Positions 4,878 through 29,260 of a stretch of DNA of 49,082 bases are shown piece by piece (within the stretch, counting starts at the first letter, position 1; every line of letters starts with the position of its first letter). The stretch is from positions 1 through 49,082 of IMG/VR virus record IMGVR_UViG_3300017971_000371. One strand, 5' to 3'. The stretch is from a virus. The notes below the pieces were generated by a model that was not told where the DNA came from, searched no databases, and saw nothing but the letters and a program-made list of their open reading frames with translations. The translations under genes and the position numbers were made by a program.

Positions 4878-7550
4878 CTACTCCATGAGTTCGCTCTCGT
4901 CGCCGAGAGTAGAAAGCCCGAGTTGCCAACCTTCCACGGGGACCGGCGCCGTCGGTCCGGTGACCCGCTTCAAGTGTGTGTGTGCCGGTTTCATGTAGTC
5001 CGCGATCCTCCGAATGATCTGCTCTTCTATAGATGATAGTGGATCGCTTGATACTACGTCAAAGCAGTAGAGCGTATACGAATCCCCCGGCGCGAGTTCG
5101 GCTCCGCCCGAGCCGCCGATCGCGCCCGTCGGGAAGTCGAGCACCGTCGCCGCCGTTCCGCCGAGCGCCTCGACGATCGAATCGACTCCGACCGTGTCCG
5201 ACTCAATCACGACTCGCGCCGCGTCGCTCCCTGTCGCGAGGGTAGTCGGTAGACCGAGCACCGCTTGAAGGGCGCCCGCCGCCACCTGTAGCGATTGCCC
5301 CGCGCCATAGACCAGCGTCATGATCTCCAACACGCCGCCCGTCCCCGCGCCAGCGACAACCCCGCTCGATTGATTGTTGATCTTCTCCGCCACGTCGAGC
5401 GCGTCGGTCTCGGTGCCGTCGAGGGTGACCGTGTAGCTGGACCCGTTGACCGTGAAGCTGAACGAGTCCCCCGGCGAGATAATCCACGGGGGCGCGATCG
5501 TCCCCGTTACGATCGCGCGCGTCCCGATGAGCGGAGCATACGCGCCGCCCCCCAAGAGTTGCGCCTCGATAGCCGTCGCGACTTCCTCCGCCTCCGCCGC
5601 GGAGGGCGTTACGAAGTCGACGCCAGCCGTCGAGGAGAACGTGAGCCGCTGAACGATCCGCCCGTCGGCGGTCGCGTCCGGTATCGCGGAAGCCACCGGG
5701 ATGATCGTCACGCCGCCGACCTCCGCCGCGCCGGGAGCCGCGACCGTATACGTCCCATCATTGCCGGTGCTCTCGACCACGCGGAACACGCGACCCGTAA
5801 GGAACTCCGACGCCCGCTCCCCGAGGATCGTGAAATCCTGATCAGGAACCGAGACCGCCGAGATCGAGGAGCCGCCGTCGATCGCCACGTAGAGATCGCG
5901 ATCGACCCCTGAAAAGTCGTAGGTCTCCGCCGCGCCCGAAACGATCTCCGCTTGCGCCCCCTCCCCGAGTTCGTCGACCCCGAGAACCCAACCGTCGCTT
6001 ATGTAGTCGACGACCTCGACCTCTTTCCCCAAGAGAAAACGAACCACGCTCTCGACGCCGACCGCCGTCCCCTTGAGCTTGTAGATCGAAACGAGCACGC
6101 GCAAGAGCTTGCGCTTTTCGAGCGCCGTGAGTTCGAGATCCGTCCATGCCGCGAACGGGTTCCCCACGTCGTAGAGCATCGCGTCGATCTGATCGTCGGT
6201 CGCCTTGTCGGGATCGTATTGATCGGTGAAGCGGTCGACCTCGTATGTGATCAGATCGAGCGCCTCTTGAAGCACATTGATAAACCGTCGGAGGTGACCC
6301 GTTCCCGCGTTGTCTTGCTCGCGGTTGACCAGCGGGATGAACTTCCACAAATCCCACCGACGCCCCTCGGGGATCGTGGGTTGGAATCCCGCGAACGCCG
6401 CCGTTGTCCAATCGGGATCGATCGCGTTGCCGCTCACGTCTTCGACGTCGCCGTCGACGGTCAAGAGGTAGTCGGCGAGGGGGGTCATCTCCCAGTTGAG
6501 CGTTAGATCAAACTCTTCGCCCGCCGCGCCCGCGGTAGTATCGGCTACCGCCACCGAGACAACCGACAAGTTGACCGCCGCCGTCGGTGGCGTCGTCTGT
6601 CGCGCGATCGTGAAGTTGTCCTCGGAGAGCACGGAGAGCGACGACCCCGTCGCGACCGTCGTCGGGAACCCGAGGATCGTGTTCGCGTCGCCCCCGGTGA
6701 CTTGCATCGTCACGCTGTCGCCTACCTCGTCGCTCAAAAGGTGGACGTAACCCGACACCGCGATCGCGCTCGCCCCATCGAGAGAGGCGCTCAACACGCT
6801 CGCGACTTCCTCCGCGGTAGCGTTCGACGGGTCAATGAAGTTGGACAAGAGGAAGGTCGCGGTTTGCGCGCTCCCTCCCTCGACCCTCGCGTCGAGAGTC
6901 TCACCGCCCGAGAAGTTGAACGGCTCCGCGAGCGTGCTCACGATCGTCGCGTTGCCGCCCTCGGGGTCGTCTTGCATTTCTTCGTTGAAGCGGACCCTCA
7001 CGGTTTTCTGATCGATCGGCTCCGCGCTCACAAGACGCGGCGCGGTGAGATCCTCCGCGGTGAAGTAGTAGGTTTCGGAGATCGTCGGCGACGTTGGCGG
7101 ACCCGACCCGAACGCGCCGGTCCCGAACGGACCGAAGCCGAAGCCGCCCGTCGCGCCAGCCGACACGCGCACGCCGACAACTTGCTCCGAAGAGAGAACC
7201 GCGGGCGACTGATCGCAAGTTACCTCGATGTAGAGATACGGGTCGGTCGCGGAGCTTTGCGCGGTAGTGCTCCCCGCTCCCGTCCAAGGCGCGGCGAAGC
7301 TGGCTCCGTCGAAGGCGACGACAAACCCGCTCCCGAGATCGATCTCGACTTGCATCGTGAAGCCGGTCGGGGGCGCCGCGGGATCGCCGTCCAGATCGAC
7401 GACTCTCGCGGTGACCGTCGAGGAGATCGCGATCCCCGTTTCGTCCGGTTGCGGGTCTCGCAAAATGATCGCGTACCGACCCGCAACGACCACGCCCTCC
7501 GCGTCGTCGACGGAAAGGAGCGCGATAAGTTGGTCAACCGTGAGGGGCAT
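4878..7550 (-). CDS. Baseplate tail protein I (P2 gpI-like) with large insertions
   Basis: In P2-like phages gpI joins the baseplate wedge to the fibres. The family core is split here. Residues about 395-525 carry its first part (WDLWKFIPLVNREQDNAG, ALEKRKLLRVLVSIYKLKGT, SVVRFLLG). The end (IEEQIIRRIADYMKPAHTHL, about 840-860) carries the conserved PAHT. Between them, about 540-820, sit beta modules resembling the flagellar-hook IN motif (693-775 is clearest). Another lies at about 207-305, preceded by an Ig-like strand pattern (PRLVSAEPIDQKTVRVRFNE). Length 890 residues against about 180-250 for P2-type gpI. The start is fixed by CGGAGGATAG before ATG; that TAG is the stop of the preceding gene. 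Confidence 0.8.
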   Translation of the reverse strand: MPLTVDQLIALLSVDDAEGVVVAGRYAIILRDPQPDETGIAISSTVTARVVDLDGDPAAPPTGFTMQVEIDLGSGFVVAFDGASFAAPWTGAGSTTAQSSATDPYLYIEVTCDQSPAVLSSEQVVGVRVSAGATGGFGFGPFGTGAFGSGPPTSPTISETYYFTAEDLTAPRLVSAEPIDQKTVRVRFNEEMQDDPEGGNATIVSTLAEPFNFSGGETLDARVEGGSAQTATFLLSNFIDPSNATAEEVASVLSASLDGASAIAVSGYVHLLSDEVGDSVTMQVTGGDANTILGFPTTVATGSSLSVLSEDNFTIARQTTPPTAAVNLSVVSVAVADTTAGAAGEEFDLTLNWEMTPLADYLLTVDGDVEDVSGNAIDPDWTTAAFAGFQPTIPEGRRWDLWKFIPLVNREQDNAGTGHLRRFINVLQEALDLITYEVDRFTDQYDPDKATDDQIDAMLYDVGNPFAAWTDLELTALEKRKLLRVLVSIYKLKGTAVGVESVVRFLLGKEVEVVDYISDGWVLGVDELGEGAQAEIVSGAAETYDFSGVDRDLYVAIDGGSSISAVSVPDQDFTILGERASEFLTGRVFRVVESTGNDGTYTVAAPGAAEVGGVTIIPVASAIPDATADGRIVQRLTFSSTAGVDFVTPSAAEAEEVATAIEAQLLGGGAYAPLIGTRAIVTGTIAPPWIISPGDSFSFTVNGSSYTVTLDGTETDALDVAEKINNQSSGVVAGAGTGGVLEIMTLVYGAGQSLQVAAGALQAVLGLPTTLATGSDAARVVIESDTVGVDSIVEALGGTAATVLDFPTGAIGGSGGAELAPGDSYTLYCFDVVSSDPLSSIEEQIIRRIADYMKPAHTHLKRVTGPTAPVPVEGWQLGLSTLGDESELME

Positions 7551-8009
7551 CTATCCTCCGAGCCGGGTCGCCAGTAGAGAGAGAAGCGCGGCGCCGTTGT
7601 CGGGCTCCGCCGTTCGTGCGTAGCTGTAGACCAAGCGGCACGCGACGCCGCCGTTGTCATGGAGCAACGCGCGGACCGGGCTCGGCGCGCGCCTGAATTT
7701 CCGCTTTCCTTCCCGTCGCTCCGAGTCCTTGCGGCTCCCGTCCGTGATCCCCCTGGAAAGCGCGAGAACGTCCGCCACGCCGTCGAACTCGATCCCCATA
7801 CCCTCGACCATATCGCACGCCCAAAGGCGAGCGGTCGCATTGTCGAGCATGTGAGAGAGGATCTGCGCGCGATCGTCCGCGGGCGCCCCCGAATGCTGGC
7901 AAACCTGCAACGAGGTGAGCGTCGGCGCCCCGTTCCAAAGCGATTCGTATTGAGCCCGCGAGTAACACGTCGGCAAGCTCAACATTTCATCGATCGACCA
8001 ACCGCTCAT
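7551..8009 (-). CDS. Unassigned baseplate-region protein
   Basis: The product is 152 residues with a strong ribosome site (GGGAGG, then ATG after six bases). Its stop codon touches the ATG of the gpI gene. No family is recognised. It is largely helical, with five scattered cysteines (residues 15, 37, 64 and two nearby), a basic central stretch (GSRKDSERREGKRKFRRAPS) and a hydrophobic C-terminus (AALLSLLATRLGG). Its place between the beta-helix proteins and gpI suggests a small wedge or fibre-assembly factor, but nothing in the sequence proves it. Confidence 0.65.
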   Translation of the reverse strand: MSGWSIDEMLSLPTCYSRAQYESLWNGAPTLTSLQVCQHSGAPADDRAQILSHMLDNATARLWACDMVEGMGIEFDGVADVLALSRGITDGSRKDSERREGKRKFRRAPSPVRALLHDNGGVACRLVYSYARTAEPDNGAALLSLLATRLGG

Positions 8010-8019
8010 CGATACCTCC

Positions 8020-9423
8020 CTATAAGTACAGGTTAGCGTTTGCCACGTTGTACGGGCTCGCCTCGTAATTGGTCACGTTCGCATGTATCCCGAGGTTCAT
8101 CCGACAATGAGTGATCAGCGCCGAGTATGCGGCGGCGGCGTAGACACAGAATCCCGCGCCTGAACCCGCCTCGATAGCGGCACCAAAAATTTCGGCGCCG
8201 GTCGCGACCACCTCGAAGGGCGCGAGGGTGTTCGTCGTCCTGAAGCGCCCACCGCTAACGATTCCGTTCGCGCCTATCTCGATCGCCAGCGTCGCCGCAA
8301 GACACTCGCAATCAATCATTCTGCCGCCCGAACTGACTCGGATCCCCCCCTCGTCGAAGCGGCACCCGAGCATGATTCCGCTCATTGATTGACCGCCGAA
8401 CGAGTCGGTCCCCGCGACGCACCTCTCGGCGCGCCCGCTGAACGATCCGTCGGAAGGCGTCGACCCCGCTCCGAACGAGTTGTCGCCGCCCTCGCAATCG
8501 TAAGCCTCGCCGGTGAATGCGCTGATCGACTTCGACGTCGGGCCCGAGCCGAACGAGTAGTTCCCCGCGGTGCAAAATCGCGCCACGCCCTCGAACCTTC
8601 CCTCGACCCCCCCCGAGTCTTGCGCCGAATAGCCGAAGCAATTATTCCCGCCCTCGCACCGCTCCGCGTAACCCGAGAAGATCCCGTCGCCAGCCGCCGC
8701 CGAGCCAAACGAATCGTTGCCTCCCTTGCAATCGTACACCTCGCCCGAGAGCGTTACGCCGGAAGCGACGTTACTCCCGAAAGAGTATTGACCGCCCGAG
8801 CAATGGCGCGCGATCCCGCTGAACTCTTGACAGCGAAGGAAGGATTGCGTCGGCTCGGCGTGACAGTGCTCCCAGTAACCGCCGATGCCCAGATACGTAC
8901 CCGAGAGCCAGCACCCGACGGCGTTGGAGTCGACGAGGTTCTCGACGTAGAGATCGCGGAACTGGGAATCGCTCGCGCTGGTCGCCGAGTCGATCCGCAA
9001 CGGATAGCCGCCCGCGCTCCCGTCGGCGTCGAGTTCGATCCTCAACCCTTCGAGTCTCACGTCTTGCGCCGTTACCTCGACCGTGTAGCTCGCACCGTTC
9101 CCGTGGTGAACGTAGGTCTCGGGCTTTTGCACGACCACGCCGTCGATCGAACGGCACGACCCGAACCCCTTCACGTCGACATAGTCGGTGTCGAGTTGAA
9201 GCCCCGAGTTGCCGATGTCGTAGTCGCCGGGAGGAAGCAACACAAGAACGCGATTGTCCGCGGTCGGCGAGAGGTTCTTCGCGTAGCCGAGAAACTCGTG
9301 AAGGTAAAGACCGTTGAGGATAGGGTTCGAACCCACGGGGACGCGGAACACACGTTGATCCGCCCCGACCCCGTAATCGCCGGGGTTGAGGGTGAATTTG
9401 ACATCGAGGATTGTTGCCGCCAT
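8020..9423 (-). CDS. Cysteine-ladder beta-helix tailspike-like protein (short paralog)
   Basis: The product is 467 residues; AGGAGAGCGCG precedes the ATG. The first part (NRVLVLLPPGDYDIGNSGLQ, then LDTDYVDVKG) is the entry to a right-handed beta-helix of the pectate-lyase-like type. From about residue 190 there are at least six repeats of about 27 residues with the pattern F-S-G-x-A-x-x-C-x-G-G-x-x-S-F-G, for example FSGYAERCEGGNNCFGYS and FTGEAYDCEGGDNSFGAG. One cysteine and one SFG recur at the same place in each coil, so a stacked ladder is expected. The next gene upstream encodes a longer paralog. No catalytic residues can be named. A role as tailspike or fibre tip is inferred. Confidence 0.75.
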   Translation of the reverse strand: MAATILDVKFTLNPGDYGVGADQRVFRVPVGSNPILNGLYLHEFLGYAKNLSPTADNRVLVLLPPGDYDIGNSGLQLDTDYVDVKGFGSCRSIDGVVVQKPETYVHHGNGASYTVEVTAQDVRLEGLRIELDADGSAGGYPLRIDSATSASDSQFRDLYVENLVDSNAVGCWLSGTYLGIGGYWEHCHAEPTQSFLRCQEFSGIARHCSGGQYSFGSNVASGVTLSGEVYDCKGGNDSFGSAAAGDGIFSGYAERCEGGNNCFGYSAQDSGGVEGRFEGVARFCTAGNYSFGSGPTSKSISAFTGEAYDCEGGDNSFGAGSTPSDGSFSGRAERCVAGTDSFGGQSMSGIMLGCRFDEGGIRVSSGGRMIDCECLAATLAIEIGANGIVSGGRFRTTNTLAPFEVVATGAEIFGAAIEAGSGAGFCVYAAAAYSALITHCRMNLGIHANVTNYEASPYNVANANLYL

Positions 9424-9432
9424 CGCGCTCTC

Positions 9433-11535
9433 CTAATTGCGGACGCTGGCGTCGACCAAGTTGGGCGCCGACGCGAAGAGGTTTGTCACGTTGATCGAGA
9501 TCGGCTTGCTCAATGAGCAGAACGAGATCCTCGCGTTCTGCGAGCCGCTCGAATCGATCGACATCGAATAAGTGGTCGCCGCTTGGATCTCCGTTTTGTC
9601 GATCAGCGGAGCCGACGACGAGGTTGTGATCAAGAGAGGAGCCGCGCTCAACGCGTCGCTTGCGCGTATCCGCGAGAACTTGATTTGCAATCCGCTTCGA
9701 ACGCCGATCGCGTGAACCGTCTCTTGAGCGGTACACTCCCAAATTATTTTATTGACCTGCGAGGTCGTTCCGCCCGTCCCCCCGAACGCATACGCCGCGG
9801 CGATGCAGCGGATCGCCGTCCCCGCGAAATCGCCATTCGCGCCGAAGCCCGCGCCCGTAACCTCGCAATCGCGGGCGAACCCGAAGAACTGATCGTTGCC
9901 AATGGGGACCGGCCCCGAAGCTCCGAACGCGTAGCCGGTAGCCTTGCATCCGGTGAGGAGAGCGGAGGTCGCGACGTGACCCGCCACGGTAGCCGAAGGC
10001 GCGCGCGAAGCTCCGAACGCGTAGTCTCCCGCCGAGCAGTTGAGAGCCGTCCCCGAGAACGAACCTTGCGCCCCGTAGGAAAATCCGAACGTGTAGTCTC
10101 CCGCCTCGCAATCGCGGGCGTCGCCTGAGAATGTGCCGTTGCCCACGTTGGCGGCACCGAACGATGAGCTTCCGCTCCGACAACGCCGGATCGTTGCGCT
10201 GCACTCCGCCGAGCCGTTGTCGCAGTAGCCGAACGAACCCGAACCACCCGTCGAGCCGTTGTCGCAGTCGTCGAGGAAGCCGCCACACAACACGCTGTAA
10301 CTGCCCGCGCCGTTGAAACTCGAACCGAACCCACTCGACGACACCTGACACCGCACGGCATATCCGGCGAACGTGGCGTTCCCTCCGCCCATCGTAGCGC
10401 CGAACGACCCGAGCCCCGCGAAACAATCCTGCGCGTACCCAGTAAACGCGACGTCGACCTCGGTCCCCGTGTCCGAGTTGCCCGCGAAACTTCCCGCCTG
10501 TCCAACGCACCGGAAGAACGTCCCCGCCGTGTTGGTTTGCCAGATAAAGCCGGGGATATCCGCGACGCAATCTTGCCAGAACCCATCGATCCTTCCGACC
10601 GTGTCCGACTGAACGGCGACCGGATTCGGCGACGCGCCCGACGTGAAGACGAGCCCTTGATACCGCGACGCCGCGGCGTAAGAAGCCACGTTGATCATGA
10701 AGCACGTCGCGGACGGCGTCCCCTGCTCGACGGTTATGTTCGAGAGGCGCACGTCTTCGACGGTTTGGTTCAGCACCGATGCGCCGATCCCCATGATATA
10801 GGCGCCGGTCTTGAACGTGGAACCGCCAAAGGTGCGCGCGGCACCGGGGCAAAGTCCGTACAGATCGACATAGTCGGTGTCGAGGTTGAGGGTCGCACTT
10901 TCCAGATCATAGACCCCGTAAGGGATCAAGACCTGTGCTCGGTTGTTCGCGCCCAGCGACTTGCCCGCGGGCGTGAGGAGCTTCGCCGCCGCGTATGCTT
11001 CGAGGAGCTTCACGCCGTTCTCGGCGGCGTCCGCGCCATGCTCCACAACGATGACCGAGTCGTCGGGGAATGCCACGCCGCCCGCCCCGTCCGCGAACCG
11101 CGATTGAACGAACTTCACCTCTTGATTGTTGCCGTTATAGAGACCGAGGATCAGCGCGCCCGAGGGCGGCGTCGCCGACTCTTGAAGCGCGAGGGTCTCG
11201 TCTACCAAAGGCCATGATGACGGGATCACGTAGAGCGAACGGATCTCGCTCGTCGAACCAAACGACAACGATCCGATCGGGATGTCGATCGCCTTGAGCC
11301 CGGTTCGGTGAGAGAACACGTAAAATTTTTCGGACCATTGGAGGTCGTAGCCTCCGGCCCCGTCGTCGACCACTTCCACGTCGCCGCCGCCCGTGAAGAT
11401 CAACGAGTTCTCCTCCCGGTTACGGAACGCTTGAAGATCGACCGAGTTGATCATCGCCTCGAATTTTGCATACCAGGGATCGTCGCCTGAACTCGGCCAG
11501 GGTATCCCAAGATAAGGAGTCGTGTTACCAGCCAT
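9433..11535 (-). CDS. Cysteine-ladder beta-helix tailspike-like protein (long paralog)
   Basis: ATG at 11535 (MAGNTTPYLGIPWPSSGDDP) is preceded by GAGGAGGGTTGATC. The open frame extends further upstream but overlaps the previous gene and lacks a site. The product is 700 residues. Residues 1-165 form an N-terminal virion-binding part, beginning with the TPYLGIPWP motif seen at many fibre N-termini. Residues 170-230 (NRAQVLIPYGVYDLESATLN, LDTDYVDLYG) match the helix entry of the shorter paralog. Residues about 360-600 carry ten or so coils with repeated Cys and FG (C371, C396, C452, C476, C500, C530, C557, C577, C600). The two genes look like a tandem duplication followed by change in coil number. 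Confidence 0.78.
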   Translation of the reverse strand: MAGNTTPYLGIPWPSSGDDPWYAKFEAMINSVDLQAFRNREENSLIFTGGGDVEVVDDGAGGYDLQWSEKFYVFSHRTGLKAIDIPIGSLSFGSTSEIRSLYVIPSSWPLVDETLALQESATPPSGALILGLYNGNNQEVKFVQSRFADGAGGVAFPDDSVIVVEHGADAAENGVKLLEAYAAAKLLTPAGKSLGANNRAQVLIPYGVYDLESATLNLDTDYVDLYGLCPGAARTFGGSTFKTGAYIMGIGASVLNQTVEDVRLSNITVEQGTPSATCFMINVASYAAASRYQGLVFTSGASPNPVAVQSDTVGRIDGFWQDCVADIPGFIWQTNTAGTFFRCVGQAGSFAGNSDTGTEVDVAFTGYAQDCFAGLGSFGATMGGGNATFAGYAVRCQVSSSGFGSSFNGAGSYSVLCGGFLDDCDNGSTGGSGSFGYCDNGSAECSATIRRCRSGSSSFGAANVGNGTFSGDARDCEAGDYTFGFSYGAQGSFSGTALNCSAGDYAFGASRAPSATVAGHVATSALLTGCKATGYAFGASGPVPIGNDQFFGFARDCEVTGAGFGANGDFAGTAIRCIAAAYAFGGTGGTTSQVNKIIWECTAQETVHAIGVRSGLQIKFSRIRASDALSAAPLLITTSSSAPLIDKTEIQAATTYSMSIDSSGSQNARISFCSLSKPISINVTNLFASAPNLVDASVRN

Positions 11536-11537
11536 GA

Positions 11538-12665
11538 TCAACCCTCCTCGGAGATCAAGCGGAACGCTACCTCGTGATTTCCGAGGAGCCTCCGCACGGG
11601 GGCGAAAAAGTCTGTCCACGTCCGCCGCTCGCTTGCGCTTACGGGTCGCGAGACATAGACCTCGCCGTCGATCAAAATTTGCATGAGCCAGTGAATATCG
11701 AGCGCGGTCGGCGCCGCCTGTAGTGCTGCGAGATCGGCTTGGTGTTGCGCGAGCCCGTGATAGGTGTTCGACAACCGCACGCTATCGATCGCCCCCCACA
11801 AGTCGGGGTCGGCGATCTGGATCGCCCCGTCGGGGTAGGGGTTGAACGGACCGACCCCGAACGCCGAGAACCCCACGTCGACCAACGCGCCATCGACGAA
11901 CAGATCGAAAGCGTTCCCCACGCCCGCCCACGATACCGTGAAGAAATGCCATCCCGAGCTTGCGGTGATAGTGAATGCGCCCGTGTTGCTCGACGAGGAG
12001 ACCCCGAAAAATCCGTGAGTCACGGAGATCAACCACGAATGCGCGCCGGGACCGACGGCGCCCGAGAGCGCGATCTTCAACCCGCTCGCGAACGGCGAGT
12101 CGGTGAGCATGAAGATCACGGGGTCGACACCCGACGATCCGACGTGAGAGTCGGCGTCGAAGTTGAGCAGGAAGTCGACCGAGTAGGCGGAGAGCGCCCC
12201 GCTCCAAACCTCGGGCTCGTTGCCCCCGTCGAGTTGACCAGCGAACGAGAGCGCGGGGATCTCGCGACACAAACCCGCCGCGGCGCCGAACGTCTCTCTC
12301 GCTTGGCGCAACGCGGGAACCCCGGTCAAGTGGTGCGCGCCGGGGGCGTCGTCGAGGGCGCCGCGCGAGTTGCTGTTCATCGGGTAGTTGAGCAGGGTAT
12401 CCGAGAGCGTCGGAAGTTGCGCGGGCTTGAGCACACCGGGATCGGCGGGCGCCCGAGTGTCGAACGTGGCGCCGACGAGATCGACATCTTCGAGGTTGAC
12501 CGTTTGCTTGATCTCGGTGAAGTCGCCGCCCGTGATCAACGCGCGCTCGATCAGCGCCTCCGCCCCGAGCGCGAACACGAACGACCCGTCGGGAGCGGTG
12601 AAGGTCGAGGGCTCGATCCTCCCGCTCTTCGTGGCTCGGTAGTGGTCGAAATCTGTCGCGCTCAT
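11538..12665 (-). CDS. Lectin-like (LamG/ConA-type) baseplate or fibre protein
   Basis: The product is 375 residues; GAGAGGG precedes the ATG, with one TACGGGTCG-family copy (12665-12673) inside the spacer. Residues about 110-310 have the strand order of a laminin-G/concanavalin-type sandwich: a domain entry (LLNYPMNSNSRGALDDAPGA), a middle beta-sheet (YSVDFLLNFDAD), W-H-F-F-TVSW, LFVDGALV, and the closing DPDLWGAIDSVRLSNTYHG. The final part (ALDIHWLMQILIDGEVYVSR and following) is separate. Such domains bind sugars, so host-surface contact is likely but inferred. It sits among fibre genes downstream of baseplate J. Confidence 0.65.
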   Translation of the reverse strand: MSATDFDHYRATKSGRIEPSTFTAPDGSFVFALGAEALIERALITGGDFTEIKQTVNLEDVDLVGATFDTRAPADPGVLKPAQLPTLSDTLLNYPMNSNSRGALDDAPGAHHLTGVPALRQARETFGAAAGLCREIPALSFAGQLDGGNEPEVWSGALSAYSVDFLLNFDADSHVGSSGVDPVIFMLTDSPFASGLKIALSGAVGPGAHSWLISVTHGFFGVSSSSNTGAFTITASSGWHFFTVSWAGVGNAFDLFVDGALVDVGFSAFGVGPFNPYPDGAIQIADPDLWGAIDSVRLSNTYHGLAQHQADLAALQAAPTALDIHWLMQILIDGEVYVSRPVSASERRTWTDFFAPVRRLLGNHEVAFRLISEEG

Positions 12666-12679
12666 ACGGGTCGCCCTCT

Positions 12680-13405: not shown

Positions 13406-13417
13406 CTGATCCTCCCT

Positions 13418-16400
13418 TTAGAACACCTCACCGAGCCACTTATCTTCCGTGAAGGTCTCCGCCAAACGGTAACCGGGCGCCGGGGGCGCTGGCGCGTCGT
13501 TTGGCGGAACGTGATCGAACTCCGCGGTTGTGGTCGAGTAGTCTGTCAATTCATCCTTCCAAACCGCCGACGCGTCGTTCGTCCACCCCTTCAACGTCAC
13601 GCGGTCGACGTAAGTGCCCGACCCGATCGACGTGTCGAACTCCGCGGCCCCCCAATTGTACGGCAACGCGAAGAGACCCGAAACCGGATCGTTGACCACT
13701 TCATAGATCACGAGCCCCCATTGTTCCGCAAGATAATACGATCCGCTCGGATCATACGGTCCGGTCGATCCACTATCCCAGGCGTCCGCGGGGATCTTCA
13801 ACTCCGAGCGCGACCCGTTAGGACCAATGCCGATCAGCCCGAGGGTTTCTCGGGCGTCCTGATCGAAGTAGAGCCGATCGGATCTCGGGGTGGACAGGAT
13901 AGCGAACTCGGAGATCGACGACGTGGAACCGTCCCATCCTAACCAGATCCCTTCCTGCTCGCCGTCCTCGCTCTCCCATGTACCGAACGTCAACCCCGAG
14001 GTGTCGCCGCTTAGAGCGGCGACCAGGGCGCTTTGAAGCTCGGCGACGAGGGCGCTCGCGCTGGCGTAGCTCCCCGCCGTGATCGGCAACTCAAGGACAC
14101 GGAACCCGGCGACCGGCGCGATCGTCCCCCATCCCAGGGTTAGGCGGTTACGGGTCGCGCCCACCCCGAGCGGGAAGGTCAACGCGCTCGAATAGAGCCG
14201 ACCGTCGCCAGCGGTGCCGGGGGTCAAGGCGTCCGCGGTGTAGGGGGTGGTCAACATCGGGAGAACGTCGTTCTCCCACCCCTCGACGAACCCTTCGAAC
14301 GCGCGCGTCCAATCGTGCGACCACGGGGCGCCCTGGTCTACCGAGGAAGTGAATCCCCCCGGCGTATACGTGAACGCCTCTCGCCACGGTTCGCCGATCC
14401 AATTCGGAGGAACGTGGAACTCGTCGCCCCAAACCTCGAACCCCTCGAAGGTCTCCGAGCCGCCCGTGAACTCTCCCGTCGTGACGTTCGAGAAGTCAGT
14501 GAGAAGCTCAGACCATCCGACGTCGTTCGCACCTTGCGAGGTCGTAGCGTCCGTGAAGCCGAGCACGACCGCCGCCGCTTGTGCGATATCGACCGAAAGC
14601 GTCGAGCCCTCTCCGTCGCTTGAGGAGCGCACCGCGACGAACTCGCCGAGCCACGGGAACGCGTCCCCGCCCTCGATCAAATCGTTCAGCGCCGCGCACA
14701 CCTCCGCCGCGGTAGCGTTCGCGGGATCTTCAAACGTCGCGACCGCGGGATCGATCGTGACAAGCTGGCCCACGCCGTCGATCGTTACGCCGAACGCCTT
14801 CGCGGAGGAAAAGTCGAACGGCTCCGCGTTGGAGCCTATCTTGATCGCGCGTGTCCCGAGGTGATCCCAATCTTCCCACGGGGCGCGCAAGCGCTCAACG
14901 TAGGCGGTGAACTCCGCCCATGCCGCCGCCACTTGTTGAGAGATCCACTCCCACGCCTCCGCCTCCCCCACGCGCCCGCTGGTCGCCTCAATCTCGAAGC
15001 TCGGGTTCTCGAAGGGGGTCGGGATTTCCTCGGGAGAGAACGCCGCTCCGAGCGCCTCGTCGGTCATTGGCTCTTGATAGATCACCGCGCCGCCGAACGT
15101 GCCCCGGTAGCCTTGCCGCATCGGGAAATATGCGGCGTGAGTCGCGGGCCCGAATGAGATCGCGTCGGTTGCGTTTCGGGCGATCTCCGCGTCGTCAACC
15201 TTGAGGGTCGCGAGGGTCACGCCGTCGACAACGACCCGTAAGGTCCGATCGTCGAAGCCAGCCGCGGCGCCCTCGTCGCCTGTCCAAGCGATCCCGAGTT
15301 CGAGTTGCTTCCCGTCGTAATCGCCGGGGGCGAACGGGGCCCTCGCCTCGACGAAGCTCGCCGAGCCTAGCGAATAGATCGTCGCGACTAGCTCCTCGGT
15401 CTTCGCATCCCAGTAGAGCGCGAAGCCGTTGTCGACTTGCGGATCGCCGACGAGGAACGTCCCCCCCATCGTTATCAGTTGGCAATACTGAAAACCGAAA
15501 GCGAGCCCCTGGAAATAGAACAGATCTTGAAGCCCGAACCTCCCGACTATCGCGAAGGGTTCCCCGATCCCCTTCCATGCTCCGTCTGCTCGGAGCAAAG
15601 GTCGGGGAGAGATCGTCGTGTTCTCGATCAGCACGGTCGACCCCGAGGGAACGGAAGAAACAACGGACCACTCGTCGACCTCGACGACCGAGTTCCACGC
15701 CACGTCAACGACCCGTAAGGACACCGGCGCTCCGAAGTTGGAGCCGATCGGGACGTGGATCAGATCCGCCGCGGGGAAGAACAGATCGCCATCTTCCCCA
15801 AGGTCGCCGTCGTATGCTTGGCGGTTACGGGTCGCCAGCCGGTTTATGATCCACGGCTCGAAGCGATCGACCTCGACCTCGTTGAACCAATGAACGAGCA
15901 CGTCCGCCCCACTACCGAAGACCTCGGTCGCGCCAGCGAAGAGCCTCGCGACCATCCCCGCTTGTTGCCAGTTTGAACCGATCGGGGCGGGCAACGTTTG
16001 GAAGATCGTCGTCAAGTCGATCGGGCCCACCGAGGAGATCGCGATCCATGTCGAGCCGTTGTGATACTGCGCGGTCACCGTCGCCGCCGTCGGCGTCCCA
16101 CTGAACACGAGGCGCGCTTCACCGCTCGTCACGCCATCCCACGGGATCGACACATGCGCCGCCGCGGGGAGCCCCGCCCAACCATTCGGATCGTCGACGC
16201 TCGCGAAGTGATACTTCCAGAACCCGAGGTCGCTCGCCGCCTTGCCGTGGAGCGCCGCCCACTCTCTCGCCGCCGCTTGATTGAACGGGGAGACCAGCGC
16301 CGCGAACGCGCCGTCGTAAGAGCCGCGAGCTTGCGCCAAGAACCGGATATCGGCGTCGCCCCACTTCACGCGCAAGGTTGGATCGAAGCCGAGCGATTGA

Positions 16401-16756: not shown

Positions 16757-16768
16757 GCTCGCCCCTTC

Positions 16769-18304: not shown

Positions 18305-18306
18305 TG

Positions 18307-18705: not shown

Positions 18706-18708
18706 CGC

Positions 18709-19488: not shown

Positions 19489-19491
19489 TTT

Positions 19492-20418
19492 TCAACCCTG
19501 TATCGGCTTCGTCGAGGGCATGACGATCCGATCGTTAATCTGTACCTGCGCGCCCTTGATATCGATCAGCGGAGCGTCGAGCGCGAGCGTCCTCTCCGCG
19601 CGAATGAGCGCCGAGTTCTGATCAGCGTCGAGCACGAACTCGACCATCGTTTCCTCGGTCCCCTTCACGTCTCGAACCGCCTTGAGCGTCGCTTGCCGCG
19701 AGCCGCTCCCTTTCTCTTGCTCGGTACTGAGCCCGAGCGCCGACGCCGCGCTCCCCCCGATTTGCAACGTCGTCGACTCGCCAGTGAACACCGACTCGAT
19801 CACGATCGCTTTGTTGATCGCGTAGCACCGAACGCGCGTCATGACCGCGGCGATCTGAGAAGCTACCGTTCCCGCCGAGAGCGTCCCGTCGCTCGACTGC
19901 GAGGCGTCGAGGGTAACGCTCTCCTCGGTCGCGAGGTTGACCGCCGCCGTGAGCGTCTTGCCGTCTAGGTCCGAGAACGGACCCGTCACAGAACCGGCAA
20001 CACGAGCCGGATCAGCGCGGTTGTCGAGCACAACGCGGAACGGCCCGAAGCCGAAGACCTTGATCCTCGGATCGGTATACTCGGGGAACTGCTCGCCGTC
20101 GCCATGCCAGCCGGGAGCCCAAACGGGTTGATCTGGATCGCCGTTTACGAACATGCAATAGACATCAGCGCCCACGGGGGGGACGTAGTTGCGCCCCTCT
20201 TGCGCCGAGCCTCCCGCCCCGAAGGGGAGGGCCCAAACGCTTTCGGGTTCGATCAGCCCAGGGATGACGAACTTGATCCGCCCGATATAGGGAAGCTCTT
20301 CCGCGTTCGGATCGTTGGGGTCGTTCTCGATCTTGACGACGGTCCCCGTGTAGAGCCCGAAGAGCTTGTCGGGATCGTCGTCGTAGAACTGATCGTCGTA
20401 TGCGTGCGGTGTGTTCAT
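19492..20418 (-). CDS. Baseplate central spike V (gp5-type OB fold) with inserted module
   Basis: The product is 308 residues. Residues about 20-105 are the OB fold of the gpV/gp5 family (LFGLYTGTVVKIENDPNDPN, LPYIGRIKFVIPGLIEPESV, PVGADVYCMFVNGDPDQPVW). Residues about 265-308 are the short-repeat beta-prism (ALIRAERTLALDAPLIDIKG, AQVQINDRIV). Between them, about 140-245, lies one IN-like module (DGKTLTAAVNLATEESVTLD, TVASQIAAVMTRV, GSAASALGLSTEQ) not usual for this family. The spike tips the tail tube and pierces the outer membrane. Its start follows the stop of the gpD gene by one base (AAGTGACATG), so translation is likely coupled. Confidence 0.85.
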   Translation of the reverse strand: MNTPHAYDDQFYDDDPDKLFGLYTGTVVKIENDPNDPNAEELPYIGRIKFVIPGLIEPESVWALPFGAGGSAQEGRNYVPPVGADVYCMFVNGDPDQPVWAPGWHGDGEQFPEYTDPRIKVFGFGPFRVVLDNRADPARVAGSVTGPFSDLDGKTLTAAVNLATEESVTLDASQSSDGTLSAGTVASQIAAVMTRVRCYAINKAIVIESVFTGESTTLQIGGSAASALGLSTEQEKGSGSRQATLKAVRDVKGTEETMVEFVLDADQNSALIRAERTLALDAPLIDIKGAQVQINDRIVMPSTKPIQG

Positions 20419-20419
20419 G

Positions 20420-21760: not shown

Positions 21761-21763
21761 CCC

Positions 21764-22102: not shown

Positions 22103-22110
22103 CTAGCACC

Positions 22111-22737: not shown

Positions 22738-22747
22738 CGCAACTCCC

Positions 22748-25402
22748 CTATTCCATCGCGCGCTCGGTCGCTTCGACGTTCTGCTTGTGGACTAACTCCA
22801 TGACTTTTTCGCCGTCGATCTCGGCGACGAGTTCGACCGGGCGACCCGCAAGCGCATCGATCGCGCTGGCGATTCGGTTGAACTCTTTCTCGTATTGGCC
22901 CGCGCGCTCCGAGGTGAGTTGTCCCGCCGCGCGCTCTTGCGCCATGTTGTATTTTTGTTCTTCGAGTTCGCCGAGCAACGAGGTAACCCCACCGCGCGCT
23001 TGCGCTATGTCGGATGTGATTCGCGCCTCTTGCGCCCGCTGCCCCGCTCGTTGAAATTGCGCTTGTATCTTATCGTGCCTCGCTTGTAGGAGCTTGCTTG
23101 ACCCCGCCGAGACTTCCCTTTTCCCGGTCACCGGATCGACGTATCCTGTTTGAACATTCATGAGCCGCCGCTGCATAATGTTTCCGAAATTGCCTAGCGA
23201 GATCTTCCCGCCGAACAGATCCGAGAACGTCTTCCCTATCGCGCTGAACGACTCAACGAAAACTTGCTTCATGTAGCGGACGGTTTCGATCAAACCCTGG
23301 ATCGCGTGAACGATAAACATGATCACGTCTTTGATAAAGACCGCCACGTCGTAGAGCGTTCCCATTACCGCGACCAGTGTTCGGAAGCCCTCGACAACGT
23401 CCGCCGCGGTGACGCCCTTCAACGACTCGCGGATATCCTTCGCGAGATCCATAACGCCCGACATCATGTCGATCGCGATCTCGCCGAGACCCGCAAGCGC
23501 AACGCCTGTTTGCGCGCCCGCGTCTTCCCACTTGCTCATCGAGCCAGTGAACATGCTGGTCGCGTCGACACCTATCAAGTCGAAGAATTTTTTCTTGAGG
23601 CGGTCGAGCGGCTCCGCGAGCATGTCGACGCCGCGGTCGAACCCCGTCTTCAACCCCTCCCAAAAAAGTTCGGCCCGCTTGAGAAAGCGCGTGAACCCGT
23701 TTATGAACGCGTTTAGCCCGCTCGAATTCATCTTGTCGAGTTCCTTTTCGGTCGCCGACGAGAGCGATCCTTGCGACCACAACTCGGTAACCGCCTTGAA
23801 CCCGAGCTTGAACTTTTTGACGAAGCCGTCCCACGTCGACCCCATCCCCCCTACGTTCTTTTGGAACCCGCGGAACATGGCATAAAACGCGATCCCCAAA
23901 CCTCCGATCAAGAGGGTCAACGGACCGAGCACGAGAATCATTTTTGCGAACGAGAGGATGAGCCCGCCGACACTGAACCCGAGGAGAGTCAAGATCCCCT
24001 TGAGCATGAGGAGCGCGCCAGCCGACGCAATGATCGAACCGATCGCTCCGAACACTCCGATGATCGCCGTCCGCACGCCGGGAGGGAGCGCGTTTATGAA
24101 ACGAGCGATCGCCTCCGTCGTTTTGTAAACCGCCTTCGTTACGAGCTTCATGATCGGGAGAGCGCCCTCGCCGATGGTGACCTTGAGGGTCTCGGTCGCG
24201 CCGGTCAAGAGTTGCTTTTGCCCCGCGTAGGTTTCGAGGAGCGCGTCGGCGAAATCTCTCGCGGCGCCCTCCGACGTCTTCGCAGTCTTCGCCCACGTTC
24301 GAAGCTCTTCCGTCGATAGCTTTTGGATCGCGGCGAGTTTCTCTTCCTCCGACGCGAAGCGGGCGATCTCGAAGCGCATCGCCTCGATCGCTTGCTTGCC
24401 CTTGAGGGTCTTGTCGGTGCCGTCAACCGTGATCGTCCGTGAGGCGTTCGCTACCGCGTTGTAAGCCGCCATACCACGCCGCCCGAACCCGAGGGTCGTC
24501 GTCAAGAAAGCCTCGGCGTCAGTGGCGCCCTTGAGCTTCTCGGAGAGGTCTTGCATTACGTCGATGAACGGTCGAACCTTTCCGTCCTCTTTGTCGAAGA
24601 CGTCGATCCCCTTTTTCTGGATCAACTGTTGGGTTCGCTGGTCGGTCGCGAGTCGCGCGAACGATTCACGGAGAGAGGTCGAAGCGATCGACGCTTCGAT
24701 GTTCTGATTCCGCAAGAGCCCCATTGTGATCAAAGTGTCGTCGAGACTTTGCTTGTAGAGGTTCCCCGAGGTCGCCGCGCGAGAGAGCCCCGTCGAAAAA
24801 TCGCGCGCTTGGAAGTTGGTCATCTGAGTGATCTTGAGGAGCTTGTCGGTCACGACCGAAGCGTTTTTCGCCTCGCCGACGTAGCCTTGCATTTCGATCC
24901 CCATCGCCTTCATTGTGCCGACGACGGCGTTCGCGGCGTCCGCGAGACCGACTTGACCGAGGGAGCCGGTCGCCAGATCGAGAACGGGGACAAGGGTCGA
25001 CATCTGCTCTTGTGCCGTGAGACCAGCGGTCGCGAGATTGGTCAACCCTTCGACCGCCTCGTCGGGCGAGAACTTCGTTCCGAGGGCGGCGTCGAGAGCC
25101 GAGTCGTGAAGCGCTTTCAAGTCGGCGGTCGTCGCCTGACTGATCACGCCGATCCCCGCGAGCCCCTGTTGAAAGTTGCCCGCGGCGTTCGCGGCATTGG
25201 CGACGCCAGCGGTCATGCCCGCGCCGACCTTGAAGGTCGCCATCGCGGTTGCCATTTGCTTGAACCCGTTCGCCATTCCCGACGACGCCGCGCGAACCTT
25301 GTTCGACATATTCATGAAGTTGCGACCGGCCCGACCGAAGACCGGCGACGCCGCGTCTTTCGCCCAAAGCTCGAAGCCCGCTCCCATGTTCGCAAGCGCC
25401 AT
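22748..25402 (-). CDS. Tail tape measure protein
   Basis: The product is 884 residues. Residues about 75-435 match the TP901-type tape measure core ([60 protein letters not shown], later [14 protein letters not shown]). Residues about 444-510 are strongly hydrophobic and glycine-rich, likely the membrane-inserting part. The C-terminus contains [20 protein letters not shown], a common tape measure end. At about 1.5 angstrom per residue the length predicts a tail of roughly 130 nm; that is a rule of thumb. It is preceded by the frameshifted chaperone gene, the canonical order. Confidence 0.93.
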
Positions 25403-25405
25403 CGT

Positions 25406-25663
25406 CTACCCCTTGAACCCCTTCACCTCCGCCTCGCGCTGATCGATTATCCGCTCGATCAATAGCTCCACCCGGTAGAGCGGCATCGCGAGAATTTCGG
25501 AAGGTTGGAACGAGCACCCGCCGCCGAAGATAGGAATCCAGTTTAGCTCATGAAACAACGTCGCGATTCCTTCCTCGCCTAGCGAGCCGAACCCTAGCGT
25601 TGCAAGCGCCGAGCGCGCTTGCGCTTCCGTCTTCCACGCCCAGGCAGGAATAAGGAAGCATCG
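25406..25663 (-). CDS. C-terminal extension of the tail-assembly chaperone, reached by -1 frameshift
   Basis: This frame has no credible start of its own: upstream it opens only at TTG 25702 inside the previous gene with no ribosome site, and an internal TTG is the only other choice. It overlaps the last 70 bases of the previous gene in the -1 frame. It encodes 85 residues after the shift point (RCFLIPAWAWKTEAQARSAL and TLFHELNWIPIFGGGCSFQP, ending EAEVKGFKG). The block HELNWIP-(x)-GGGCSFQP-(x)-MPLYRVELLIERI resembles small proteins encoded just before tape measure genes in other myophages. As in lambda gpG/GT and P2 gpE/E', the extended form would bind the tape measure. A separate TTG-started protein remains possible. 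Confidence 0.7.
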   Translation of the reverse strand, partial: RCFLIPAWAWKTEAQARSALATLGFGSLGEEGIATLFHELNWIPIFGGGCSFQPSEILAMPLYRVELLIERIIDQREAEVKGFKG

Positions 25664-26364
25664 AAAGGGACGTCGAGCACCGACGTGAACCCGCACCGGC
25701 AAGTGATTTCAATCTCGGTGTCCATTCCGCAATCGTTTTCGTCCATCGCGTCGCGGAGATCCTCCGCCTCGTCGCTGGTCAATTCCGAAAGCCAGTTGAG
25801 GAACTCCGACTCGGAGAGACCCTCGATCTTTTTGATCCGCGTCCGCAACGCGCATGAGGACACGCGATCGGGATACTGCTCTTGAAGTTTCTCGAACCGA
25901 TCCTCGTCGGAGCCGAGCGCGTGACGGTAAGAAACCGTCTTCCCGCCGATCTCAATGTTGAACGTTCCGCCCCGCTCGAACACCGCCGCGCTCTCTTCCG
26001 AGAGTTCCTGAACGGGAAGCTCTTCGAGCAGGTTGACCCGATACTCGCCGCGCTTACCGCACGCGGGGCACTGAGTTTCGAAGTCGTAGAGGGTTCCGTC
26101 GCGGAACGAGATCGTGCGAAGGTAGATGAACGCCGCGAAGCGATCCCCGCCGAGCACCTTGTTCCAGTCGGGCTTGTCCCCCTCCGCAAGCGACCCGTAA
26201 GGACCGGGGTCGACGACCCGCAAGCAACACGCGTCGAGGAGCGCTCCGATCATTTTCGATTGTCGGTTGCTCTTCCCGCTCGTGACAAGATCCTCGTCGG
26301 CGACGGTCATCGCCCTGAGTTCTACTTTTGCGCCGGAAGGTAATTGAAAGATCTCGGTTCTCAT
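25594..26364 (-). CDS. Tail-assembly chaperone, short form (gp51/gpG-like position)
   Basis: The ATG at 26364 (MRTEIFQLPSGAKVELRAMT) has GAGG eight bases upstream; the frame also opens at GTG 26373 inside that site. The product is 256 residues. It carries a split zinc-ribbon pair (QCPACGK near residue 100 and TCRCGF near 230) and a helical middle (SESEFLNWLSELTSDEAEDL). This resembles T4-type baseplate/tail chaperones annotated as gp51-like, and ends in a basic tail (GRGRRKRKRARRLQR) replaced when ribosomes shift at 25663-25669. Upstream bases 26365-26493 contain two AGGTAAAG boxes and a small GGCGC/GCGCC hairpin. Confidence 0.8.
   Translation of the reverse strand: MRTEIFQLPSGAKVELRAMTVADEDLVTSGKSNRQSKMIGALLDACCLRVVDPGPYGSLAEGDKPDWNKVLGGDRFAAFIYLRTISFRDGTLYDFETQCPACGKRGEYRVNLLEELPVQELSEESAAVFERGGTFNIEIGGKTVSYRHALGSDEDRFEKLQEQYPDRVSSCALRTRIKKIEGLSESEFLNWLSELTSDEAEDLRDAMDENDCGMDTEIEITCRCGFTSVLDVPFDASLFLPGRGRRKRKRARRLQR
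25663..25669 (-). promoter_or_regulatory. Probable -1 ribosomal frameshift site CCCTTTC
   Basis: On the coding strand the zero frame reads GTC CCT TTC GAT; C-CCT-TTC is a full X-XXY-YYZ heptamer. Slipping back one base gives CCC TTT CGA and joins residue 234 of the chaperone to the 85-residue frame below, giving about 319 residues. GCTTCC, three bases further on, can pair with GGAAGC 27 bases later, and a perfect 8-bp stem (GCAAGCGC/GCGCTTGC) follows about 40 bases downstream. Position directly before the tape measure gene is where such shifts are expected. Confidence 0.7.
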
Positions 26365-26493
26365 GTTCTTCACCTCGTCGTTTGGCTTTACCTCTAACGA
26401 CGCGAGAGGCGCGTTCTAAGCGCCCCCCGCGTCACGCCTTTACCTGATACGCGGTCACCCTCGGGACAGCGTCACGGGGCAACCTCGCGCGTT

Positions 26494-26955
26494 CTAGGCC
26501 GCGCTCGGGGTCCGCTCCGCGTAGCGCGGCTGGATCGTGACGACCTCGATCCGCACTTCGTCGGCTCCGTTGTCCCAATCGCCCGAGTCGAACTTCCTGC
26601 AATAGCAGTCGTAGAGGTGCCACCTCTCGACCTCGGAGCCGTCCCGGTCCAGTTGCACGACCTCGCAGTCGAAGAGCAAGTCGGGCTCGTTGAGCCCCTC
26701 GCCCGTCGCGACGTCGACCGTGTTCTTGAACAGGTTGTAGAGGTCGAAGTCGTCGGACGCGCCGCGCTCCATTGTGACCTCCGGTTGCGTCAACGTGCCG
26801 GGGGAGTGGTAGGGACGGATGTCCCCCCCCTCCAAATAGGACACGTCCGCCACCTCGGGCGCGATGTTCGAACACTTGTTGAACGCCGCGCGAGCGACGC
26901 CGTCGATCTCGACGACGAACTTGAATTTCTTCCACCATGTACGCGGAGTCGCCAT
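26494..26955 (-). CDS. Tail tube protein (gp19-like)
   Basis: The product is 153 residues, close to the usual 140-165. The family pattern is visible: KFKFVVEIDGVARAAFNKCS near the start, DVSYLEGGDIRPYHSPGTLT, then PEVTMERGASDDFDLYNLFK, which is diagnostic for T4-type tube proteins, and an end strand EVRIEVVTIQPRYAER. The tube hexamers stack inside the sheath encoded just upstream. GGAGGGATCGAAAC precedes the ATG. The adjacency sheath-tube is normal. Confidence 0.93.
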   Translation of the reverse strand: MATPRTWWKKFKFVVEIDGVARAAFNKCSNIAPEVADVSYLEGGDIRPYHSPGTLTQPEVTMERGASDDFDLYNLFKNTVDVATGEGLNEPDLLFDCEVVQLDRDGSEVERWHLYDCYCRKFDSGDWDNGADEVRIEVVTIQPRYAERTPSAA

Positions 26956-26989
26956 GTTTCGATCCCTCCGTTTCCTCTCTCACACCGCG

Positions 26990-29260
26990 CTAGGCGGCGA
27001 GGCTCTCTTCGAATGCCCGAGTGTCTTGGGTGACGATCAGGATTATGTATTCGGCGGGCTTGTTGGTCGCGAGCCCGATCCTGATCTTGAGTTCTCCCGC
27101 GAACTCGGTCGCGGGCGGGTTGAGCGCGTCGCTCACGTCGACGAAGAACGCCTCGGAGGGAACCGTCGAGCGGAACGCCCCCACGTTCATCTGCCGCGTG
27201 AGGAAGGCGACGATCGCGCGTCTCACGCGCTGGCGCAACACGCGGTTGTTCGGGCGGTGCTTGACCCAAACGAGCCCCTCCTTCAACGACTGCTCGATGA
27301 AAATCACACCGCGGCGCTCCCCGATATACGGGAAGTTGCCGCTCGACTTGAGCGTGCGACACCCGTCGATGTGGCGCGTCGTGCCGGGAAGCTGAGTGAT
27401 CGGGTTGATCCTCTTCGGATAGATCAGATCCCGCTTGCGCTCGTCGAGAACCTCGTCGGTCTCGAACCCGACGCACCCGACCACAACGCCCGCGTTCTGC
27501 TCGACGCCCGCGGGGTTGTCGTAGACTCCCCCGAGTCGCGAGTCGTTGCGCGCGTAGACGCCCGCGATGAACCCCGAGGGCGCGACCGCCAAGTTGTCGT
27601 CGGACCCGAAGACGTTCTTGTCGGGGTTCGTGATCTCGATCCGCGGCCAGTAGATCGCGGCGAACTCCGACTTCCCGAGGATCGCCGTCGTCGTGTCGAC
27701 GTAGGTCACCATCGCCGCCGCGGTCGGCACGCTCGCCAGCGGGGGCGGATCGAGGATCGCGAAGCACGAACCGCCGCGCCACGTCTCGCAGTAGTCGATC
27801 ATGTGGTTCGCGATCGCGTTGCCCGTCTTGCCGGGGATGATCAGGATTCGGAGTTGCTGAACGAGGTCGAGCGCATACGTCCCGTTTTTCGCGGTCGACG
27901 TCCCGATGAAATCGGTGTCGGCGATCCCCGAAAGACCGTCGCTCCCGCCCGTCATGGGGCCCCAATCCACGTAACCGCTTCCGGTCGGGTCGCAGTCGGG
28001 CTTCGCGACGTCGGGGTTGTAGGGGAGCCCCTGATCGGTCACGGCGATCAGGTTCGACCCGAGCGCTACGTGATTGACCACGGTCTCGACGTAGTTGTCG
28101 GCGGTCGAGTCCATCGTGAGGTTCGGGAAGGTCTCTTGAACGACGCCGCTCTTGATCACTTGGAGATTGAACTCGTCGACGTCCCCGCTCGAAGCGAGGA
28201 GCGTTCGGATCGTGAGGTCGTCGGTGTAAGCACCCTCGGTCTTGCCGTCGACCTTGAGCGTGTTCTCGGGAGTGGCGTCCGAGCCCGTGTGAAGGAGAAC
28301 ATCCATCCCGAGCGCCGCGGCGAGGTCGGGCGATCCCGCCGTGAGTTGGATCGTCTTCGTCGACCCCGTGAGATCGGTCGCGATCGAGAGTGCGTTCGTC
28401 CCGAGGATCGTCGCCGTCGAGTTCGGATCGGCGGCGTCGATCAGCGCCTTCATTTCTGTCGGCGTCACGTTGTCGACGTCGGCGACGTTGCCCGAGCCCG
28501 TGGTCGTTCCCGTCGGGAGGGAGATCAGCGCGGCGAGGTCGGTCCCCGCTCCCGCGGCGACGATCAGGGTCGCGCCCGATCCTTTCTGGTCGGTGTGAAC
28601 CACCGGAACGCCGCCCGCGACGACCGCGAAGCCGCCCGTGATCGAACCGTTGATCAGATTGGCGATATCGAGCGCGCTCGTCTCGCCGCCGACCGCGGTG
28701 ATCGTTTGGGGTCCGTTGCCGTCGCCCGTGTCGATCGACATATCCTCGCCACCGGCGAGAGCCGCGATCGGATACGCGGCGCCCGAGGTCGCGGTCGCGT
28801 CCGCGGCGGTCACTGTCGCGGCGTTGGGGCCCGCGAGGTCCGTCGTGATCCCCATCGTGTAACCGTTTTCGAGGTTCCACGGACCGGCGATCGTTCCGGT
28901 GACTACCGCGGCGGTCGCGGCGGCTCCCTCGTTCTGGAGCATTTGCGTTCCCTTGACCGCGGTGAAGCTGTTCTCGTCGAGGGGATCGGTATAGTGACAC
29001 GTCCTCACGACCCACAAGAACGAGCCGCCGTTGAGGAAGAACCCGTGCGCCGCCTTCGCGACCTCCGAGTTCGTGGTGAACCCGCCGAAGATTTCGACGT
29101 ATTCCTCCATCGACGTGACGAGGGTCGCGACTCCGATCGGACCTCTCTCGGTGACCCCGACAACGCCGGTGACGGCTGTCGGTTGCGCGGCGATTGCGGG
29201 AATACGCGGCGCCTCTTCCAGTATGACGATCTTTGCCGCAAGCAATTCGGTTGAAGCCAT
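26990..29260 (-). CDS. Contractile tail sheath protein with two inserted beta modules
   Basis: The product is 756 residues, longer than T4 gp18 (659). The start has the sheath signature: IVILEEAPRIPAIAAQPTAV, TGVVGVTERGPIGVATLVTS, MEEYVEIFGG. The C-terminal half has the conserved layers (YCETWRGGSCFAILDPPPLA, SEFAAIYWPRIEITNPDKNV, RRGVIFIEQSLKEGLVWVKH). Between them, about residues 122-258 and 260-330, two modules of the IN-like type are inserted (TSALDIANLINGSITGG, DLAALISLPTGTTTG; TPTEMKALIDAADPNS, DLAAALGMDVL). Insertions at this place face outward in known sheaths, so the modules may decorate the tail surface. GGGAGGATCGGATC precedes ATG. Confidence 0.93.
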   Translation of the reverse strand: MASTELLAAKIVILEEAPRIPAIAAQPTAVTGVVGVTERGPIGVATLVTSMEEYVEIFGGFTTNSEVAKAAHGFFLNGGSFLWVVRTCHYTDPLDENSFTAVKGTQMLQNEGAAATAAVVTGTIAGPWNLENGYTMGITTDLAGPNAATVTAADATATSGAAYPIAALAGGEDMSIDTGDGNGPQTITAVGGETSALDIANLINGSITGGFAVVAGGVPVVHTDQKGSGATLIVAAGAGTDLAALISLPTGTTTGSGNVADVDNVTPTEMKALIDAADPNSTATILGTNALSIATDLTGSTKTIQLTAGSPDLAAALGMDVLLHTGSDATPENTLKVDGKTEGAYTDDLTIRTLLASSGDVDEFNLQVIKSGVVQETFPNLTMDSTADNYVETVVNHVALGSNLIAVTDQGLPYNPDVAKPDCDPTGSGYVDWGPMTGGSDGLSGIADTDFIGTSTAKNGTYALDLVQQLRILIIPGKTGNAIANHMIDYCETWRGGSCFAILDPPPLASVPTAAAMVTYVDTTTAILGKSEFAAIYWPRIEITNPDKNVFGSDDNLAVAPSGFIAGVYARNDSRLGGVYDNPAGVEQNAGVVVGCVGFETDEVLDERKRDLIYPKRINPITQLPGTTRHIDGCRTLKSSGNFPYIGERRGVIFIEQSLKEGLVWVKHRPNNRVLRQRVRRAIVAFLTRQMNVGAFRSTVPSEAFFVDVSDALNPPATEFAGELKIRIGLATNKPAEYIILIVTQDTRAFEESLAA

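Follow-up and report, generated by a model that had tools for sequence, protein, structure and literature searches.

A module with a predicted FliD D3-like fold recurs in four tail proteins of a viral contig and is nested within itself

The closest described counterpart of the module reported here is the sheath insertion domain (InD) of Vibrio phage XM1 gp6 (PDB 7KH1), which the XM1 report calls unique to that phage, compares to FliD D3 and proposes to be of host origin (PMC10457771). D3 of FliD is set within D2, and the D2 and D3 domains of Campylobacter flagellin are structural homologues of each other (PMC8306008). A crassvirus auxiliary capsid protein contains an "FD" domain resembling FliD (PMC10172136); the paper on the Pakpunavirus Adele records the fold not only in FliD and flagellin but also in sheaths, nozzles and auxiliary capsid proteins, and describes a lateral sheath domain with no direct part in contraction (PMC12846349). 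The extra domains of sheaths have been surveyed, with adhesion and stability proposed for them, in a source that also cites Fraser et al. 2006 for phage Ig-like domains as a promiscuous surface domain swapped among virion proteins (PMC9230969). Neither the fold nor its occurrence as an insertion in sheaths is new.

The window analyzed here, a viral contig of 49,082 nucleotides, shares with XM1 the placement of such a domain in the N-terminal domain of the sheath; however, XM1 as described has one domain in the sheath alone, whereas the window has seven copies in four proteins and two nests. The D2-D3 domains of FliD and the outer domains of flagellin (Flagellin_IN, PF07196) have a fold like that of the window modules, and the best Foldseek matches align the whole nested pair of the sheath with FliD D2-D3, but they are flagellar and the window modules viral, and PF07196 matches just 4 of 16 modules at E<=1 (best 3.2e-5). 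The crassvirus FD and Adele lateral domains likewise place a FliD-like fold inside another domain of a virion protein, but they were recognized by fold and in single proteins, and the available parts of those papers do not describe nesting or reuse in several proteins with empty sites. The phage Ig-like domains have another fold, and in the window gpI an Ig-like domain hosts the module. Apparently new, relative to the literature in the parts available, are three things: the nesting, the presence of one module in several proteins of a single tail with empty sites in relatives, and its kinship in sequence to hook proteins; no earlier report of these was found, which does not prove that there is none.

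The tail genes of the window were placed by means of Pfam and PHROGs; those examined all lie on the minus strand and include a baseplate J protein and others in addition to the following:

26990..29260, minus strand, tail sheath protein, 756 aa (phrog_15814, 4.5e-179; phrog_23 tail sheath, 5e-37)
4878..7550, minus strand, gpI-like tail protein (Tail_P2_I), 890 aa (PF09684 at residues 434-517, 0.0015)
19492-20418, minus strand, gpV-like spike, 308 aa (Pfam/PHROGs)

The sheath-family profile also matches the sheath 8bky among PDB chains (2e-76).

The original prediction, made from the letters alone, was that one module resembling the flagellar IN motif occurs at least six times in the sheath, the spike, gpI and an 1112-aa protein of the baseplate region. 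The recurrence in these four proteins is borne out by a seed profile, an HMM of the sheath inner module alone (14 sequences), run on the six-frame ORFs of the window. The seed contains the window sheath copy, and the copies of the other three proteins are outside it; beyond the sheath it matches gpI at residues 209-303 (3e-23) and 688-775 (3e-10), the 1112-aa protein at ~645-740 (7e-11) and the spike at ~147-239 (2e-6). No window ORF outside the four proteins gives a meaningful match, and the reversed-ORF control is silent (best match 0.5). The iterated HMM finds the same gpI, spike and 1112-aa copies at 1e-18 to 1e-29, values that are not independent because these copies are now in its seed. 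The sheath family phrog_15814 also matches gpI 198-342 (1.1e-9) and the 1112-aa protein 642-737 (0.004), which hints independently at a module common to these proteins. Beyond the likeness of layout noted at first, the seed and iterated matches support homology of the copies across the four proteins. The total is seven modules (sheath two, gpI three, spike one, 1112-aa protein one), five of them uninterrupted and two split by another copy inside; the predicted minimum of six thus holds, with a third, split gpI copy that had been overlooked and with sheath boundaries that had been misplaced.

The sheath copies had been drawn in tandem, at residues 122-258 and 260-330. They are instead one module whose strand pair is followed by a second, complete module before the rest of the first resumes:

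28781..28897, minus strand, outer module, part 1 (strands 1-2), residues ~122-160 (half-profile [1-29] in relatives; AF2 strands)
28490..28774, minus strand, inner module, complete, residues ~163-257 (HMM 4e-21, window sequence in seed)
28271..28489, minus strand, outer module, part 2 (helix, strands), residues ~258-330 (HMM positions 31-95)

Part 2 is matched at 2e-5 by the inner-module profile and at 1e-11 after iteration, and in the AF2 model of the sheath fragment a helix at 169-179 and the strands fit it. Part 1 scores weakly in the window sheath itself (iterated HMM, iE 8), and the half-profile [1-29] matches at the same place in sheath relatives, the alignment of which clearly delimits the insert; the order of profile positions is 1 to ~29, then a complete 1-96, then 28-96. 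The same three-part pattern ([1-29], full, [28-95]) is present in 63 of the 76 module-bearing ORFs of a second locus set, which is not a frequency, as the inner module itself was used to collect the set. In 63/66 pairs the insert has diverged more rapidly than the sheath core. A 971-aa sheath (L161 2864-5776) apparently carries two nested pairs in a row.

The gpI-like protein carries one module inside an Ig-like domain and a second nest farther along:

6960..7040, minus strand, Ig-like host domain, part 1, residues ~171-197 (model 175..389 matches Sap S-layer Ig domain)
6633..6959, minus strand, module inside the Ig-like (Big_5) domain, residues ~198-306 (HMM 3e-23; fold Z 11.9)
6384..6632, minus strand, Ig-like host domain, part 2, residues ~307-389 (PF13205 Big_5)
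5874..5948, minus strand, outer module, first strand, residues ~535-559 (alignment with L028/L029)
5673..5873, minus strand, ~67-aa insert "STGNDGTYTV" in the outer-module hairpin, residues ~560-626 (alignment of relatives)
5505..5672, minus strand, outer module, second strand and helix, residues ~627-682 (HMM 17-56, 0.002)
5223..5495, minus strand, nested module, complete, residues ~686-776 (HMM 3e-10; Flagellin_IN)
5091..5222, minus strand, outer module, closing strands, residues ~777-820 (HMM positions 58-97, 7e-7)

PF13205 (Big_5) matches residues 317-378 at its positions 35-96 (E 0.025), and the model of residues 175..389 aligns with the Sap S-layer Ig domain over only 79 residues (Z 9.8), as expected if an Ig-like domain is interrupted by the module. 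The third gpI copy is the split one (535-559, 627-682 and 777-820) around the 686-776 copy; its second strand and helix are matched by the iterated HMM at positions 14-61 (1e-6), and at the region of the outer module in the relatives L028/L029 the HMM spans positions 2/3-66 unbroken. The ~67-aa insert is found only in the window and G002/L067 and is absent from seven relatives, and its motif has no further copy among the ORFs searched. Relatives with the outer module show the profile up to position 57, a full copy, and then positions 57-96, an order by which the gpI nest is a separate nesting, at another site than that of the sheath (after the helix, not the strand pair). In G003/G006 a module copy is located at the gpI N-terminus instead, and the nested pair is absent.

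The two remaining copies are uninterrupted, and their profile matches place them in the module family:

19702..19980, minus strand, module in the gpV-like spike between OB fold and tip, residues ~147-239 (HMM 2e-6)
14534..14824, minus strand, module in the 1112-aa baseplate-region protein, residues ~645-741 (HMM 7e-11)

The iterated HMM matches the spike copy at 2e-18. The copy in the 1112-aa protein is conserved in the 1139-aa homologue of L067; the 1065-aa homologue of L072, the only long one without a module match, is too divergent in this region for a clean empty-site alignment.

That the modules are mobile insertions, as had been proposed, is upheld by empty sites in relatives for the sheath, the gpI Ig site and the spike, and also for a lectin-like protein. 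Four sheaths (L018, L020, L025, L027) lack the whole pair and have 18-21 residues versus about 235 at its place; on the sheath-core tree the pair-less sheaths fall in at least three places, a minimum of three presence changes, and the absence is best read as repeated loss. Five full-length relatives (L028-L031, L034) lack the gpI Ig-site copy, which G002/L067 has. The spike site is cleanly empty in nine relatives (193-220 aa), between DNRE and G or at the equivalent turn. At these three sites, in the sheath, the gpI Ig-like domain and the spike, the comparison with relatives reveals a gain or a loss of the module. The lectin-like protein of the window (P0009) is without the module, and a relative in G013 carries one. 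The number of modules per record ranges from zero (G010) to seven (the window, and G002 by the same reading). At ~95 aa the module is too small to contain a typical mobility enzyme.

A model of the sheath fragment predicted from 15 sequences (AF2, mean pLDDT 90) displays the same order of elements twice, one inside the other. The inner module aligns with XM1 gp6 97-214 (Z 11.3, 2.3 A over 104 residues) and at Z about 10 with FliD D2-D3 entries and V. cholerae FlaA; Vibrio flagellins are also matched, and lower matches include the sheaths of E217, Mu, Milano, phiTE and A-1(L) and one T7 tail protein. The E217 alignment covers model residues 15..232, consistent with an outer module that continues across the inner one, and the best Foldseek matches, mostly to FliD, extend along the whole fragment. 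The gpI model, from nine sequences, has a pLDDT of 68 overall and roughly 80-93 within the modules; residues 196-306 align with XM1 gp6 95-217 (Z 11.9), and the nested copy (677-776) with V. cholerae FlaA (Z 10.9). Foldseek with the whole gpI model is uninformative and gives mostly antibody Ig domains. The copies are linked structurally through shared PDB matches: for the sheath and gpI copies alike, the predicted fold is that of the XM1 sheath insertion domain, of D3 in FliD and of the outer domains of flagellin. The models accordingly assign a predicted fold of the FliD-D3/XM1-InD type (strand pair, helix, strands) to the sheath inner module and to gpI 196-306 and 677-806. In sequence, the module profile matches XM1 gp6 residues 120-202 at E 1.4e-4 (next chain, a pyruvate kinase, 0.6), and the XM1 sheath is not among the matches listed for the sheath-core profile. 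PF07196 (cut-off 22.7 bits) matches the gpI nested copy with 26.4 bits at 5325-5465 (residues 696-741), and with 20.0 bits in a whole-protein scan.

Trees of the modules do not follow the host genes in the alignments used, although the module is short and the trees are weakly resolved: a single clade of all gpI modules is rejected (p 0.002), as is one of all sheath modules (p 0.013), and one of the gpI nested modules is not (p 0.15). The nested gpI copies of the window and G002 group with the sheath copies of the window, L003 and L072 (99/99), and a six-residue deletion is common to the window nested gpI copy and the same three sheath copies; together these suggest that sheath and gpI genes have exchanged modules. 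In another grouping, the copy at the gpI Ig site joins that of the 1112-aa protein (98/94).

In bacterial genomes, the sheath-module profile finds Planctomycetota proteins of 44-58% identity (E 2e-7 to 5e-18), and the overall identity range of sheath modules versus Planctomycetota FlgK/FlgE is 39-58%. These proteins carry FlgK_D1, FlgE_D2 and rod domains; FlgK/FlgE carriers of the module are found in L195, L184-L187, L189, L167-L169 and L171. The module is present in 25 of 149 Planctomycetota genomes sampled, often in two ORFs sized like FlgE and FlgK, of which a subset was checked with Pfam; the module hosts in the window are sheath, spike and baseplate-region proteins, none flagellar. In a Myxococcota contig three proteins, among them a sheath and a gpI-like protein, hold two or three modules apiece (L193 6632-10186; L194 3043-5478, 7287-9365). 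A single consensus module finds no match in named phages by tblastn, and profiles are needed; by profile, Myxococcus phage Mx1 (L086 13861-22601) has it in two proteins, one a "kelch repeat" protein (3.6e-19), the other long and baseplate J-like (8e-7), whereas no convincing module is seen in the tails of Streptomyces phage LuckySocke, Bacillus SP-15 and Flavobacterium immuto. The repeated entry of a flagellum-related domain into different tail proteins, and into its own copies, hints at a movable surface unit common to phage tails and flagella.

Our reading, which we hold with considerable confidence, is that one homologous ~95-residue alpha/beta domain, a removable insertion, has spread through the tail proteins and likely forms a dispensable lateral outer layer. 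The unit consists of a strand pair, a helix, three strands and a short helix, of the XM1 InD, FliD D3 and flagellin-outer kind; that it is a removable insertion is shown by sequence, by the predicted fold of the sheath and gpI copies and by the empty sites. It has entered the sheath, gpI at several sites, the spike and the 1112-aa protein, the lectin-like protein in another phage, and in two places another copy of itself. The trees and patchy presence point to a spread that probably began with rare illegitimate insertions, after which copies and phages recombined. Host folds would tolerate the module because its chain ends must lie close together, fitting between adjacent strands. By analogy with XM1 and other published sheaths, the copies most likely form a lateral outer tail layer dispensable for contraction and assembly, which would give spacing, stability or weak surface contact; in its favor are the patchy presence, the empty sites that fit exactly, a divergence more rapid than that of the core and the published lateral position. 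Convergence of low-complexity beta-rich sequence without homology could draw on the alanine, glycine and threonine rich composition, but it is contradicted by E-values to 3e-23 before iteration, the silent reversed control, the complementary split halves and the common PDB matches, and we regard it as exceedingly improbable.

What the outer layer does is less certain. A structural or near-neutral role, in which the modules stiffen, space or shield the tail or are a tolerated passenger, has about an even chance; it fits the patchy presence, precise empty sites and zero to seven copies per record, and the lateral domain without a direct contraction role in the Adele paper (PMC12846349), but most sampled sheaths keep the nested pair, even if the second sample was chosen by module. 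The copies may also serve adhesion, a role proposed for sheath extra domains (PMC9230969). That each copy weakly binds cell-surface or environmental glycans, with copies along the tail raising avidity, is rather unlikely: the insert outpaces the sheath core in divergence, as surface parts often do, but the columns conserved across copies, few and mostly glycine and alanine, offer no obvious conserved binding site, and the presence changes on the sheath tree fit a dispensable part. Capture of the domain by phages from host flagella, as proposed for XM1, or by flagella from phages, is a tentative reading that we put at somewhat under an even chance; it draws on the identity of the sheath modules to FlgK/FlgE and on a tree in which most flagellar copies cluster together with some phage-type copies inside, but that tree (62 rows, 96 columns) is unrooted and does not give the direction. 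Tentatively also, and with the balance slightly against it, a family of domain-sized insertions may move through contractile tails by recombination, entering unrelated folds as well as its own copies, and may have passed between tails and flagellar hook proteins.

The scattered fold similarities of XM1, crassvirus, Pakpunavirus and FliD become in this way one sequence family with empty sites, which opens gain, loss and tail-flagella exchange to ordinary phylogeny, and the nests are a natural example of repeated insertion of a domain into its own copies.

Elsewhere in the window, two proteins (8020-9423 and 9433-11619) share a recurring pattern around SFG ... SG.A..C, perhaps a beta-helix; the Pfam/PHROG scan gave no notable match for either. 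A 1428-aa ORF (44488-48774) combines a D12 adenine methyltransferase region with a C-terminal XkdF-type protease.
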